A DNA stretch of 61,246 nucleotides from a virus (IMGVR_UViG_3300021403_000010:1-61246); one strand, 5' to 3'; positions 39,751 to 44,321 are shown, counted from the first letter of the stretch. The notes: generated from the letters alone by a model not told the origin. Made by a program: numbers and translations.

Positions 39751-40296
39751 TCAAATATGTCTCCAACTTTTTCTGTCTCGTATGCGAGTTATGGTGTGAG
39801 GGCTGACTGAAAACCTACGTGCCACTTCGCTCATGGAAATGCCGGTTTTCACCAGTTCTCTAATTTTTAGGACTTGGCGATTCTTCAACTTACTTTGACC
39901 GCTGGATTCTCCACGAGCCATACATTCTGGACAGCGCAAGGAAGGGATGAACTTACGACCCCACGCCATGGCGTGTTAAGCATTCTCCGCGCGAGTCACC
40001 CATTCCAGATTGATTGCTCGGTTATCCACCTTATCAAGGTTTTTGTGATTGGCTTCTTCACCGGCTTTAGGCGGCCGAAGGAAAGCCGTCGCCACTATTC
40101 GATGCACAAGAACGTCACGGCGAATCCTGTTATAACAAAGTGTGACTTTCATATAACCGTTTCTGGTCGTGAACACCGGGCGCAAAATGTGATTCTTGTA
40201 GCTCCGGTTGTGGTGGCTTTTGATCCGCCCCAAATTGGAGACCTCATAGTCTGGCCAATCTTGTATAGGTAGCCAGCGTTCTAGTTCTTGTTCCAT
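39751..40296 (-). pseudogene. NUMOD4-HNH homing endonuclease broken by one stop codon
   Basis: From ATG 40296 the frame encodes a NUMOD4 start (WLPIQDWPDYEVSNLGRIKS) and an HNH core (VLVHRIVATAFLRPP ... NHKNLDKVDNRAINLEWVTR). It then stops at TAA 39978-39976 after RAENA. The same frame continues without another stop to 39751, encoding a Cys pair (CPECM) and the usual C-terminal helix-turn-helix (ISMSEVARRFSVSPHTITRI). Family members normally read ENAQHA here, so a single CAA to TAA change explains the break. It overlaps the polymerase end by 16 bases. Confidence 0.8.
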
Positions 40297-42737
40297 CTGG
40301 TAAGAATACTCCCGTCTGACTTTATTGGAACCTTGCAGAGAAGACTGCCTGTTTGGCGGTCCAATAGAACATTATCCATAACAGTCTCCATGCAGGCCGA
40401 GACTGTCAAAGCATCATCCTCGGGAGCTTCCACCAGTAATTCATCATAAATTGACATCAAACAAAATGACTGTACTCCGTACTCGCGCAAGCTCGCTAAT
40501 CTCTCGTCCAATTCTCCCATTGCCAACTTCATGAGATCCGCCGAATAGCCCTGTATACCGTGATTACAACCCTGGCGCACTCCGGCGTCTTGTATCCAAG
40601 GGTGGCAGCTTCGCGCTTCTGGGATGCGCCGGACTCTGCCCGTCGCTGTCCATACAATCCCGTATCTGCGAGCTTTCTCTTCCTCGCTCGACAAATACTT
40701 CTTCACACCGGGGTACAACCCAAACCACTTCTCAATGAAGTCGTTGCACCAGCGCTCAGTCATGTAGTCTGGCATTGGTTGGCCAGCAGTCGCGAACGTC
40801 GAGGCCATCAGGTCCAACAGTCCAGCTCCGGTGATGAGGTAGCAGTTACTAACCAGCCGGCCCGATACGGTGAAACGGCGACGTGGTCCTGCATTTAGAA
40901 TATCGAAGACCCAGGCGTACTTTTTGCCTTCCTTTTCCAATGTTTCCGTGGGGTTCTTTGGAGTATTTCCTGCCACGGAACCCCAAGAGCAGCCAAATTG
41001 CGTGTGCGTATTAGGCTGAGCTTGAAGTCTGGATAGTCGCGTCTCAGCAGGTCGTACAAGTCCGCGTGCGTAACCAAACGCCCGCGATACTCCACGAACC
41101 GATTTGAGCGCCTGTTGCGTAAGTTCTGACTCCGGGTCTCCAGCCGTAGATTGCCCTTCTCGTAATGGCCGTCGTTGTTCTTCCTGCCAATGTCCACTTT
41201 TTTGTAGGAAGGATGTGGGAGTCTCTTTAAAACGTAGTCGAGAAACTCTTTCGCGGAGCCAAACTTGCACTCGATGCCACGTCCTCCATAGTTTCGGTAC
41301 GACTCGTTGTTTGGGTTGTTGCATCGCTGAAGGATGGCCTGCCATCTCTTCAAAAGCATTGTGGAGCGTGGATCTGGATAGGTTTTCTTGCAAGTACAGT
41401 TCGTTGTTCTTCTCAGCAACAAATTGCTCAACGTCACTTCTCGCGTACGTCCACATTCCACGCATGTCGCGAAGATGCACTTTTCTCGACGTGGGCCTCG
41501 CCGGTGGATTCCGTCCAAGTTCAGTCTCAAGGAACCTAATGGCAATGCCGCCAACCTCGGTATGAGCAAGTTGTCGTCTGGCTGAACGCGCCCCTTCGAG
41601 CGTCGAAACGGTACCATCCTTGAGCCAGACTTTGTGGTCCGGGGTTGCTGTGAGTCCGTCATACTCGATGACCTCCTTGAAGCCCTGGCAGATCACACCT
41701 TGATGAAAAACAAATTCTTGTCCATCCCATACACGATCATGATATCCTACTCGTTCTATGGGAATCAATCCACGGTCAGTAAGGACTTTTTGACCACCGG
41801 CTATGCAGACCGCGAAATTTGTATTTTTCGATGGCGCTCTATGTAATAATTTATCTACCTTTTCTGGATCGGAGATTTCAAACGTACCCATTGCAGTACG
41901 TACGTGAATATCTCCGTCTGCTTGGTAGACTTCAATCATTGTTGAGTCACCGGACCTGTCAGCCATTAATCGCAATTCTATTTGTGCCCAATCGCGCTGG
42001 CAGATTACGTGTCCAACACTCGGAATAAAACCAGCGCGAATTTCGCGGCCCAGTGCGGACCTACCGGGTATGTTGCCGAGGTTCGGATTCTTCGACGCGG
42101 TGCGACCCGTGGCTGTGCGAGTCGTCAATAGTTGTGTGTGCACCCGCCACTCGTCTTCCCAGTGCTTGCGCCCGCACCTGGGGCAGTCCGGTCCCTTGGG
42201 GTGCAGCACGGCCCTTCGTGGCATCGCTCGCGCATACGTTCCGTCAAGCTTTGAACACTCACGGTACTCAAGAATCAGAGGCACGACCGGGTGCGCGCGC
42301 TTGAGTTGCTCCAGGGTTTTCTTGCCGGTCGAGAGCCGGTCCCCGCCCTTGGTCTTTTTGACTTTGACGCCAGCGGTCAGGTCCAGGCGCAGGGTGTCGT
42401 AGAGTAGTTCAGCCACGCGCTTGCTCGATTCGACGTTGAACAGGCCGGAGTCGTCCACGACTGCGTCTGAGTCTGAGTCGTCGTCCTCGTTGTCGGTTGC
42501 GGCCAGCACCTCGACAAACCGGTCCAGTGCCTTGGGTGGGATTTCGTTGGCGATTTCTTTGCGCAGAGCTTGCTGTCTTGCTTGCAGCCGCGACGACAGT
42601 TCGGCGAAGTGCGGGGGATCAATCTTAAAGCCAAACCTTTGCATATCGCCGATCATGCGTAGTGGCAGCCGGTCGAGCTTTGCAACGTTGACAGGATCGG
42701 GGTGACCGGGAAGTTCGACGCCTGCGTACAGAGCCAT
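40281..42737 (-). CDS. Family A DNA polymerase (polymerase domain) containing an intein
   Basis: 818 codons; the mature extein product is about 497 residues after removal of residues 311-631. Motif A is CQRDWAQIELRLMADRSGDS. Motif B is RAPSKNTNFAV|CYLITGAG with the intein at the bar. Motif C reads CLMSIYDELLVEAPEDD, with Tyr where His is usual. There is no exonuclease domain; that function lies in the separate gene at 42930. ATG 42737 overlaps the preceding stop (TAATG). It replicates the phage genome. Confidence 0.9.
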   Translation of the reverse strand: MALYAGVELPGHPDPVNVAKLDRLPLRMIGDMQRFGFKIDPPHFAELSSRLQARQQALRKEIANEIPPKALDRFVEVLAATDNEDDDSDSDAVVDDSGLFNVESSKRVAELLYDTLRLDLTAGVKVKKTKGGDRLSTGKKTLEQLKRAHPVVPLILEYRECSKLDGTYARAMPRRAVLHPKGPDCPRCGRKHWEDEWRVHTQLLTTRTATGRTASKNPNLGNIPGRSALGREIRAGFIPSVGHVICQRDWAQIELRLMADRSGDSTMIEVYQADGDIHVRTAMGTFEISDPEKVDKLLHRAPSKNTNFAVCIAGGQKVLTDRGLIPIERVGYHDRVWDGQEFVFHQGVICQGFKEVIEYDGLTATPDHKVWLKDGTVSTLEGARSARRQLAHTEVGGIAIRFLETELGRNPPARPTSRKVHLRDMRGMWTYARSDVEQFVAEKNNELYLQENLSRSTLHNAFEEMAGHPSAMQQPKQRVVPKLWRTWHRVQVWLRERVSRLRFKETPTSFLQKSGHWQEEQRRPLREGQSTAGDPESELTQQALKSVRGVSRAFGYARGLVRPAETRLSRLQAQPNTHTQFGCSWGSVAGNTPKNPTETLEKEGKKYAWVFDILNAGPRRRFTVSGRLVSNCYLITGAGLLDLMASTFATAGQPMPDYMTERWCNDFIEKWFGLYPGVKKYLSSEEEKARRYGIVWTATGRVRRIPEARSCHPWIQDAGVRQGCNHGIQGYSADLMKLAMGELDERLASLREYGVQSFCLMSIYDELLVEAPEDDALTVSACMETVMDNVLLDRQTGSLLCKVPIKSDGSILTRWNKN
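40845..41807 (-). other. Intein in the polymerase O-helix motif
   Basis: 321 codons. Block A begins with Cys1 (CIAGGQKVLTDRGLIPIERV). Block B is GLTATPDHKVW with the T-P-D-H pattern. Block F is YAWVFDILNAGPRRRFTVSG. Block G is LVSN followed by Cys+1 of the extein; the usual penultimate His is Ser. The middle section in this frame is open but has no recognisable endonuclease. The endonuclease is encoded out of frame (40895-41662). The insertion interrupts the catalytic motif B, a typical intein site. Confidence 0.85.
40895..41662 (-). CDS. HNH endonuclease nested out of frame inside the intein
   Basis: 255 residues, ATG 41662 behind AAGGAGGTCATCGAGT, the strongest ribosome site in the region. 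It has a Cys pair pattern (CVECGRTREVTLSNLL ... CTC, residues 67-91), then LQRCNNPNNESYRNYGGRGI (about 111-130) and KVDIGRKNNDGHYEKGNLRL leading to RSQNLRNRR. This is the arrangement of a known phage HNH family. The frame is +1 relative to the intein. It ends within intein block F. The likely target is the intein-less polymerase gene. Confidence 0.85.
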   Translation of the reverse strand: MTDSQQPRTTKSGSRMVPFRRSKGRVQPDDNLLIPRLAALPLGSLRLNLDGIHRRGPRREKCIFATCVECGRTREVTLSNLLLRRTTNCTCKKTYPDPRSTMLLKRWQAILQRCNNPNNESYRNYGGRGIECKFGSAKEFLDYVLKRLPHPSYKKVDIGRKNNDGHYEKGNLRLETRSQNLRNRRSNRFVEYRGRLVTHADLYDLLRRDYPDFKLSLIRTRNLAALGVPWQEILQRTPRKHWKRKAKSTPGSSIF

Positions 42738-42937
42738 TAGTCGGTACGCTCCGCGTAAATTCGTTCGAGAATCTCTTGCTGCTTCTGGGTGAGCGTGCCC
42801 CGGCGCTCCAGTTGATCCTCAAGTGAGGTGCAAAAGTCCCGCTCCCAGTCCGTCAGCTTCGAGTACTTAACCCACAGACAGGCTTTGAGCCACTCTTCGA
42901 GCACTTCGCGCGGTTGACTGCTCCAGGGTTTAGGCAA
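42737..42937 (-). CDS. Small protein between the exonuclease and polymerase genes
   Basis: TTG 42937 behind GAGGAGTGGGCCG overlaps the end of the exonuclease gene; 66 residues. Helical and charged (EEWLKACLWVKYSKLTDWER; LTQKQQEILERIYAERTD). It may bridge the split polymerase parts or be a relict linker; function unknown. Confidence 0.6.
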   Translation of the reverse strand: MPKPWSSQPREVLEEWLKACLWVKYSKLTDWERDFCTSLEDQLERRGTLTQKQQEILERIYAERTD

Positions 42938-44321
42938 CGGCCCACTCCTCGGCTACAATGCGGGTTCGTTCCTTGTCCAGCCAGTTCGCCAGACGCAGAG
43001 TCCAGTCTGCGTCCCCAACCGCGTACTGAACCTGCCGGTCAAGTGGCGCATGTACGATCGAACGCCTTGGCATCCGCCCCACGCAGCCCTCAAGCGCGGG
43101 CAGCCAGTCCTGGCCCAGCAGCCGGCGCTTTTCAACACCTTTGTCAAACCACGGCTGCTTCCATGGGTCGTAGTCCGTGTCAAGCTTGCCCAGAACCCTG
43201 TGCAGCACGGACTCAGCCTCGTGCGGCCTGTCCACGGACACGTCCTTGCGGTGCTTCTTGCCACAAGTCGGGCAGTCCGGGCCTACAGGGTGCGCTGTAG
43301 TCTCCCGCATTTCAGTCGCTACAGCGAGCGCTTCGGCGAGCCAGGACTCAAGCACGTTCTTCGAGTGTGGTGTGACCACTTCGTCATAGGAAGTCATGCG
43401 GTAGCCGAACACGCGGTAGACAGCGGCTTTGAGTCCTTGGGGTAGGTTACCCAAGTGGTACAACTCCTGCATGGTGTCCCGGAAGCGTTCAACGTGTATG
43501 CCCAACTGCCTGAGAGTCTCCAGGTCGTGAACCACATTGTGCATTACGACCAGAGGGTTGCGGCTGTGAACGTACTCCCGGAAGTCTGAGAGCGCGTGGC
43601 TGTCCGCCACCAGCAGCATCCTTCCGGAATTTGCCTTGCTCGACCATTGAATTGAGTAAGGTCTGCCCTCGTCGCTTTCTGTGTCGAGCGCCAGGAACTG
43701 GTCAAGGCTGCTCCGTTCCACGCCGCCGCTGACAAGCTGGTAGTCCAGGGGAGCCCACGGCACGTCACCACTATCGGGAACGCGCCACTTCCCACGCATC
43801 CACTTCCCCAGGTTCTCCCAGTCGGCCAACTGCGGGATCATGAATCGACCCTTGTGGAGTCCTGCCGCCGGGTGGTACATCGGCACGAGCATCCCTTGCC
43901 AGTCCCCGTGACTCGCTGGTCTTGGAAACCCATGCTCCAGCTCCAGGTTGATCGTGTCGTCGAACTGAGCGCACGCTGTAGCTCCGCACGCAACTACAAT
44001 TCGTGGGTTGACGCGCTCAAGCTCGGCCCACAGGTGGTTGTTCGCGCAGACTCGGGCGAGTTCGTCGCTGGGCTTGCGGTCCACACCGTTCGCTTCACAG
44101 CGGCACTGGAGCACGTTTGTGACGAACACTCCCTCCCGCGTCAGACCAGCGAGTGGCAAGTACGTCAGATTTAGTTCTTGTCCGCTCGGGCCACTGAAGG
44201 GTATGCCGTTACGGTTCTCCCAGTAGCCGGGACCTTCGCCGACAACCGCGACTTGGGCGTCCTCTGGGCCGTCCGGCAGCACTTGCCGGTGAGTGTTCGG
44301 ACAAAGCGCGCACCGTGACAC
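42930..44321 (-). CDS. Uracil-DNA glycosylase-like plus 3'-5' exonuclease protein
   Basis: 463 residues. Residues 1-165 match family 4/5-type uracil-DNA glycosylases: VVGEGPGYWENRNGIPFSGP as motif 1 and VPMYHPAAGL as motif 2, with Cys at the start (CALCPNTH). Residues 205-463 hold DnaQ-like exonuclease motifs: LALDTES (Exo I), VVMHNVVHDLETL (Exo II) and YAVGDADWTLRL (Exo III). In some large phages UDG, exonuclease and polymerase are one chain; here they are split into two genes. Confidence 0.8.
   Translation of the reverse strand: MSRCALCPNTHRQVLPDGPEDAQVAVVGEGPGYWENRNGIPFSGPSGQELNLTYLPLAGLTREGVFVTNVLQCRCEANGVDRKPSDELARVCANNHLWAELERVNPRIVVACGATACAQFDDTINLELEHGFPRPASHGDWQGMLVPMYHPAAGLHKGRFMIPQLADWENLGKWMRGKWRVPDSGDVPWAPLDYQLVSGGVERSSLDQFLALDTESDEGRPYSIQWSSKANSGRMLLVADSHALSDFREYVHSRNPLVVMHNVVHDLETLRQLGIHVERFRDTMQELYHLGNLPQGLKAAVYRVFGYRMTSYDEVVTPHSKNVLESWLAEALAVATEMRETTAHPVGPDCPTCGKKHRKDVSVDRPHEAESVLHRVLGKLDTDYDPWKQPWFDKGVEKRRLLGQDWLPALEGCVGRMPRRSIVHAPLDRQVQYAVGDADWTLRLANWLDKERTRIVAEEWAVA

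Follow-up and report, generated by a model that had tools for sequence, protein, structure and literature searches.

In canonical mobile inteins such as PI-SceI (VMA1), a LAGLIDADG or HNH endonuclease domain lies inside the Hint domain, in the same polypeptide and the same reading frame. The 'fractured genes' that Dassa reportedly described in 2009 are said to be split inteins that splice in trans, with an endonuclease gene standing free between their halves. Endonucleases also occur in group I introns with HNH reading frames, including I-HmuI and, in the DNA polymerase of a T7-like cyanophage, I-PfoP3I (PMC3428280). Finally, phage DNA methylases can contain an out-of-frame HNH gene, known as the ShiLan domain or Pacc40 insertion (Arsenault, Gosselin and Gogarten 2025, PMC11855218); the authors report no splicing domain or other sign of an intein, and a gene that starts at GTG and has no Shine-Dalgarno sequence that could be detected (PMC11855218). 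Another out-of-frame HNH insert is mentioned in a 2025 announcement (PMC12613952). A full-text literature search returned only such non-splicing cases of the ShiLan type as examples of out-of-frame HNH genes, and inteins with overprinted nuclease genes are not described in the searchable full-text literature, the coverage of which is partial, so that absence from it is no proof.

The locus considered here lies in a 61,246-nucleotide stretch of viral DNA (IMGVR_UViG_3300021403_000010:1-61246), referred to below as the window. Like canonical mobile inteins, it interrupts the host protein at a conserved site and has a split Hint domain around a sequence that codes for an endonuclease, but this endonuclease would be a separate product of another frame. 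Splicing and homing would reside on separate polypeptides, as in the fractured-gene split inteins; there, however, the host gene is broken in two, whereas in the window it is one open frame that would splice in cis. As with group I HNH introns, an HNH endonuclease is encoded separately inside a putatively self-removing insert in a phage gene, although introns leave as RNA and have no need for an open host frame, and no Rfam match was obtained here. The locus shares with ShiLan an HNH gene overprinted in an insert, a host frame that is left open and a sporadic occurrence in phages, and differs from it in the complete Hint intein around the gene and in a strong Shine-Dalgarno sequence followed by ATG. 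It is probably a mobile motif B intein whose homing endonuclease is encoded in full by an overprinted +1 gene with a start of its own.

The host gene encodes a family A DNA polymerase without an exonuclease domain and occupies 40281..42737 on the minus strand, with 818 codons including the intein and no stop within the frame. Pfam DNA_pol_A (6e-75, split over two stretches) and PHROG 17 (6e-75) both match the product. Alignment to intein-free PolA places the end of the N-extein (41808..42737, minus strand) in motif B, at ...KNTNFAV, and the beginning of the C-extein (40281..40844, minus strand; PHROG 5995, 5e-22) at CYLITGAG. Removal of codons 311-631 from the precursor joins KNTNFAV to CYLITGAG, and the joined exteins align with intein-free phage PolA proteins through motif B, unbroken across the junction, at 34-36% identity (E-values of 4e-62 and 1e-60). 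The insertion site thus corresponds to motif B, which reads KAVNFGIVYGI in intein-free homologues; the site is conserved in the host protein and the junction is clean.

The insert itself comprises 321 residues in the polymerase frame (40845..41807, minus strand) and runs from Cys1 to a terminal Ser-Asn, followed by Cys+1. It is supported by blocks A, B, F and G and an AlphaFold2 model. These blocks had been read in the polymerase frame by the first-pass annotation, and they are seen both in an alignment of 22 inteins (alignment A6) and at the extein junction. Cys1 is encoded at 41807, block B is T55-P-D-H58, block F is VFDILNAGPRRRFTV and block G is LVSN|C. C1, T55, D57, H58, D302, N305 and N321 are invariant in alignment A6, in which the block F and G motifs are also conserved, and the extein alignment places a Cys+1 at the C-terminal junction. 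The penultimate residue is Ser instead of the usual His, and SN|C likewise occurs in several relatives.

In the AlphaFold2 model, the two ends of the intein (residues 1-80 and 288-321) have pLDDT values of about 90-98, and residues 177-281 fall below 50. The N-terminal Hint half (residues 1-80; 41568..41807, minus strand; pLDDT 96-98) is matched by Foldseek to the Npu DnaE intein with a probability of 1.00, and the C-terminal half (residues 288-321; 40845..40946, minus strand; pLDDT about 90-96) contains blocks F and G of alignment A6. The region between them (40947..41567, minus strand) is a linker, mostly disordered by prediction, that is overprinted by the nested gene and is missing from the mini-inteins of relatives (122-150 aa), to which the window intein is 43-49% identical. 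Solved inteins rank first in a Foldseek search with the intein model (Npu DnaE 4kl5 and Ssp DnaB M86; probability 1.00, best E-value 1.5e-3). General intein sequence profiles match the family weakly at best (Hint_2, TIGR01445), and an intein profile run against PDB sequences matches 7qil with an E-value of 0.03. With both halves confidently modelled and matched to solved inteins, the counter-reading in which the flanks have no Hint fold, also named by the first-pass annotation, fails. By its catalytic blocks, predicted fold and insertion site, the insert appears to be a class 1 Hint intein, and it would be expected to splice. In phage methylases, inserts of the ShiLan type conceal an HNH gene and leave the host frame open (PMC11855218), and the window's insert could in principle be such a non-splicing element, retained as a loop of the polymerase. 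This is very unlikely, as the ends of the insert, unlike those of ShiLan, make up a whole Hint domain in which every catalytic block is present and conserved among relatives, and 321 residues kept within motif B of the active site should destroy polymerase function.

The nested gene (40895..41662, minus strand) is an intact frame of 255 codons that begins 1075 nt past the polymerase start and is therefore in the +1 frame. Its stop lies inside block F, where gatattcTAA falls within D-I-L-N. A Shine-Dalgarno sequence, AAGGAGGT (41671..41678, minus strand), overlies the intein codons for Lys-Glu-Val, and the start region reads aaggaggt-catcgagt-ATG, with a spacer of 8 nt. The first-pass annotation had described a 255-codon HNH-family frame with this start signal, ending in block F under a stop-free polymerase frame; all of this is confirmed by the sequence, and the family by PHROG 374.

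In most members of one clade of relatives (A4), the nested ATG occurs at one place, intein codon 49. Shine-Dalgarno-like matches in the Lys-Glu-Val codons of this clade average 6.0 nt, against a synonymous expectation of 4.9 (p=1.3e-5). The +2 loci described below have a weak Shine-Dalgarno sequence or none in many cases, by the scoring rule used. Some mini-inteins without a nested gene, such as that of locus L268, keep both the Shine-Dalgarno sequence and the ATG, so that these signals alone are no proof of use, and the motif may partly predate or outlive the nested gene. Separate expression of the nested gene is nevertheless well supported, if indirectly, by the start signals, the codon-choice enrichment and purifying selection in relatives. 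The HNH frame is also open for 10 codons upstream of the ATG (a 265-codon frame from stop to stop), which would allow ribosomes to leave the intein frame for that of the HNH gene by programmed frameshifting and so produce a fused splicing and nuclease protein. Such a fusion is highly unlikely: the Shine-Dalgarno sequence is well spaced, the start is at a fixed place, Shine-Dalgarno-like codon choice has been selected, and a return to the polymerase frame would take a second shift.

The HNH-family label of the nested protein is based on matches to PHROG 374 (9e-26) and PHROG 3377 (6e-22), with a further match to PHROG 2081. The protein is also represented in a 24-member alignment (A7) and by an AlphaFold2 model in which residues 40-235 mostly have pLDDT values of 70-96. 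Zinc-ribbon-like Cys pairs and an HNH region are present. Pfam and NCBIfam searches with the window's protein gave no match, although its relatives match HNH_3 weakly, and Foldseek of the model against the PDB gave no solved HNH structure and no meaningful match. Among profile searches of PDB sequences, the A3 profile matches I-HmuI weakly (E-value 0.097), the A7 profile finds nothing relevant, and the A2 profile finds coiled coils and other unrelated chains. The A2-type (+2) nested proteins have a C-terminal, coiled-coil-like heptad stretch, with weak matches to GCN4, Max and FosB. In the weak I-HmuI alignment, an Asp-Arg motif of the family lies opposite Asp-His of I-HmuI. The Asp is present in nearly all relatives in alignment A7, and is replaced by Gly in the window's copy (Gly-Arg) and in L324. 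Nuclease activity is uncertain given the family's Arg in place of His, most of all for the window's copy with its Gly-Arg, and the window's own nested nuclease may be inactive.

The openness of the polymerase frame is far beyond chance. Over the 255 nested codons the window has 0 polymerase-frame stops against 11.9 expected from synonymous codon shuffling, in which the nested protein and the gene's own codon usage were held fixed, and 0 of 2000 shuffles were free of stops. In the +1 register, a polymerase-frame stop is possible only where a nested codon ending in T precedes AA, AG or GA. At such positions in the window 0/24 codons end in T, compared with 39/90 elsewhere (Fisher p=1.4e-5). The same holds for the 99 non-redundant loci with this layout, which together have 0 host-frame stops against 675 expected, whereas 102 free-standing homologues of clade A3 have a mean of 13.7 stops in the +1-equivalent frame or 7.6 in the +2. 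T-ending codons before AA, AG or GA number 0/1227 in +1 loci and 559/1251 in +2 loci. Conversely, 0/94 Met residues in +2 loci stand directly before I, T, K, N or M, compared with 42/207 in A3, 64/149 in A4 and 112/340 in free homologues. Stop avoidance is therefore register-specific and matches the prediction from the genetic code, which sets a different cost for each register: all +1 clashes can be removed by silent T-to-C changes, and the +2 register forbids Met before certain residues. A frame left open by chance was rejected on the basis of the synonymous shuffles, the free-standing homologues and these codon tests.

Constraint was measured in relatives, through the substitutions between 19 moderately close pairs; the window itself shares about 43% identity with its nearest relative across the part that matches. 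Differences in the nested region at nested-frame positions 1/2/3 number 201/161/490 in A4, 128/112/320 in A3 and 137/81/237 in A2. The third position thus takes 490/852, 320/560 and 237/455 of the differences, respectively, and corresponds to polymerase position 1 or 2. Upstream of the nested region, differences concentrate at polymerase position 3. This pattern indicates that selection preserves the nested frame for its protein and the polymerase frame there mainly as a stop-free linker.

The layout of an intein with an out-of-frame HNH gene recurs at three polymerase sites in 99 non-redundant phage loci, RefSeq phages included. This set derives from a scan of IMG/VR with nested-protein queries, pooled with annotated phages, which yielded 135 Hint-associated nested regions, or 99 after removal of near copies. 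The nested overlaps are mostly 190-260 codons long, and the register is constant within each lineage of the non-redundant set: 33/33 loci are +2 in A2, 34/34 are +1 in A3 and 32/32 are +1 in A4. At the window's site, the +1 register occurs in the Streptococcus phages Javan113/255 and in Gardnerella AB1, and the +2 register in Sodalis SO-1, Salmonella S528 and other Jerseyvirus phages, Pseudomonas MR14, EBPR siphovirus 2 and Vibrio 97.13. A second site, between GGK|C and HNC|EN, holds +1 genes in APSE-1, Caulobacter GB2A and Shewanella SFCi1. The element is also present in Caulobacter phage RW, which grows on C. vibrioides CB15. Loci L204-L206 have two nested-gene inteins per polymerase reading frame, one +2 and one +1, and L218 has two in one reading frame, at the second site and at a third in motif A (DASQIE|C).

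A second sampling, with a query limited to the splicing domain (its N-terminal part) and thus without selection for the position of the nuclease, recovered 80 loci; some of these also belong to the sets above, and near copies are among them. Among them are 67 with a nested +1 gene, 7 scored as mini-inteins and 6 that were unscored automatically; by eye, four of the latter (L268, L276, L278 and L329) are mini-inteins and two (L328 and L332) are truncated. A nuclease in frame with the intein is found in 0/80 of these splicing-domain-selected loci. These results bear on the possibility that the window contains an ordinary intein endonuclease, displaced only in appearance by a pair of sequencing or assembly indels or by a recent frameshift. 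An in-frame endonuclease is the normal, textbook state of an intein, and the first-pass annotation had named such an indel as what would overturn its reading. This explanation is refuted by recurrence and thus highly improbable: the register is lineage-specific in 99 non-redundant loci, including RefSeq genomes, the Jerseyvirus-type element is present in 165 phage records (in 163 over at least 80% of the element length), and the polymerase frame is kept open through codon choice.

Two candidates for in-frame HNH inteins were rejected, L219 being an APSE-like, partly deleted copy and L111 a broken contig. Six further loci (L011, L012, L057, L069, L077 and L094) have no Hint match and seem to be chance reading frames over ordinary HNH genes, and they are left uncounted. 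In L031 (IMGVR_UViG_638275545_000001), which is Jerseyvirus-like, splicing-domain and HNH sequence share one frame, apparently after a deletion, as the result either of an error or of a genuine fusion. Matches at the sequence level also occur in bacterial genome contigs, including Gardnerella, Tissierella, Soehngenia and Corynebacterium.

Two members of the class are annotated in GenBank, as P46 within P45 of APSE-1 (NC_000935) and gp39 within gp38 of Sodalis phage SO-1 (NC_013600). They represent two polymerase sites and the registers +1 and +2, and are recorded as single reading frames. P46 (L003, NC_000935.1) is annotated from an internal ATG; the frame is open upstream from a GTG, which would lengthen the protein by about 76 residues and take in a conserved N-terminal stretch. 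The SO-1 pair (L015, NC_013600.1) is labelled as a type I intron, but by its sequence resembles an intein that contains a nested HNH gene in +2. The first-pass annotation was correct that the two-frame arrangement is real; it knew of no described example, and the arrangement proves to be no single case but widespread, with a few members already annotated in GenBank. Inteins with out-of-frame nucleases are apparently undescribed as a class in the searchable literature, although single members are annotated and a non-splicing analogue is published. The GenBank note on SO-1 ('contains type I self-splicing intron') and the frequency of out-of-frame HNH genes in phage introns raise the question of whether the window also has a group I intron, with a polymerase frame that is open by chance. 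This is exceedingly improbable, since a search of the window and ten relatives gave no Rfam group I match at the gathering threshold, the frame is open far beyond chance and a Hint fold is present.

In a quick tree built from 94 HNH proteins, both nested and free, the +1 clade of the second site falls among free-standing genes, and the clades of the first site lie elsewhere; its starred branches force at least two changes between the free and nested states, and 40 of its forks are weak. Taken together, the loci likely represent a distinct and widespread class of 'two-frame' mobile inteins, in which one or the other alternative frame of the intein loop carries an overprinted homing gene. The class would have arisen at least twice and spread to three sites in the family A polymerases of phages, some genes having two, with homing split from splicing, such that the nuclease has its own expression and its decay or deletion is harmless to splicing. 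In several pairs, the nested DNA is more similar than the upstream polymerase sequence (0.98/0.87, 0.97/0.87 and 0.82/0.70), which is suggestive of homing or lateral movement.

Decay of the nested gene can be seen in several relatives. L024 (OQ418408.1) is a natural knock-out, with a single stop in the nested HNH frame under an open polymerase frame. Javan422, L276 and possibly Ruminococcus phages are deletion products, and mini-inteins keep shadow fragments or the Shine-Dalgarno sequence and ATG. The deletion products and the L024 stop fit a loss of the nuclease after fixation of the intein. It may be asked whether the window has taken the same course, with an intein that splices and a nested HNH frame that is a decaying or inactive relic, its open frames inherited from an active ancestor. 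The change of Asp-Arg to Gly-Arg, seen in the window, and the same loss of the Asp in L324 are in keeping with this, as is the decay in Javan422, other mini-inteins and L024. However, a disused frame is expected to lose its reading frame and start, and in the window the 255-codon frame, the Shine-Dalgarno sequence and the start are intact and none of the 24 risky codons ends in T. A relic is thus unlikely, though less so than the other alternatives.

The favoured reading, an active intein with an overprinted homing gene, implies the following sequence of events. Translation of the polymerase frame would yield a precursor, in which the split Hint halves fold, excise the 321-residue intein and join the exteins; the excised intein would carry the disordered linker as a 'shadow' of the nested gene. 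Ribosomes starting at the internal Shine-Dalgarno sequence and ATG would produce a free, 255-residue protein of HNH type, which would cut intein-free polymerase alleles during co-infection so that the intein is copied in. Selection would keep the nested frame as a protein and ask of the polymerase frame there mainly that it have no stop. The open frames, stop avoidance, nested-frame constraint in relatives, Hint anatomy and recurrence are observed, and from them we infer splicing, translation of the nested gene, cleavage and homing.

In such an arrangement the same DNA serves splicing and homing in two different reading frames. The host gene is thereby left intact, the nuclease is started separately, and a mini-intein remains once the nuclease is lost; textbook mobile inteins, in contrast, fuse splicing and homing in one polypeptide. 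The loci also constitute a countable natural system of overprinting, with about a hundred distinct long overlaps in which both the host frame and the nested protein are known, free-standing homologues serve as controls and predictions from the genetic code hold (0/1227 and 0/94). Nuclease genes that are not annotated may lie hidden in database inteins whose linkers are long and 'empty', possibly including those in more than 160 mostly Salmonella phage records, and some out-of-frame HNH genes labelled as introns appear to sit in inteins. Inteins are thereby linked to the recently reported non-splicing inserts of the ShiLan type.

Two neighbouring genes of the window's polymerase may also be mentioned. 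The 3'-5' exonuclease of the polymerase is on a separate upstream gene (window 42930-44321, minus strand), as part of a fusion in which a uracil-DNA glycosylase-like domain comes first (Pfam UDG, 6e-23; DNA_pol_A_exo1, 5e-11). Downstream, a second small HNH gene of 106 aa with NUMOD4 and HNH_3 domains (window 39976-40296, minus strand) has a start that overlaps the last polymerase codons by 16 nt, and is possibly a second homing gene parked beside the polymerase.
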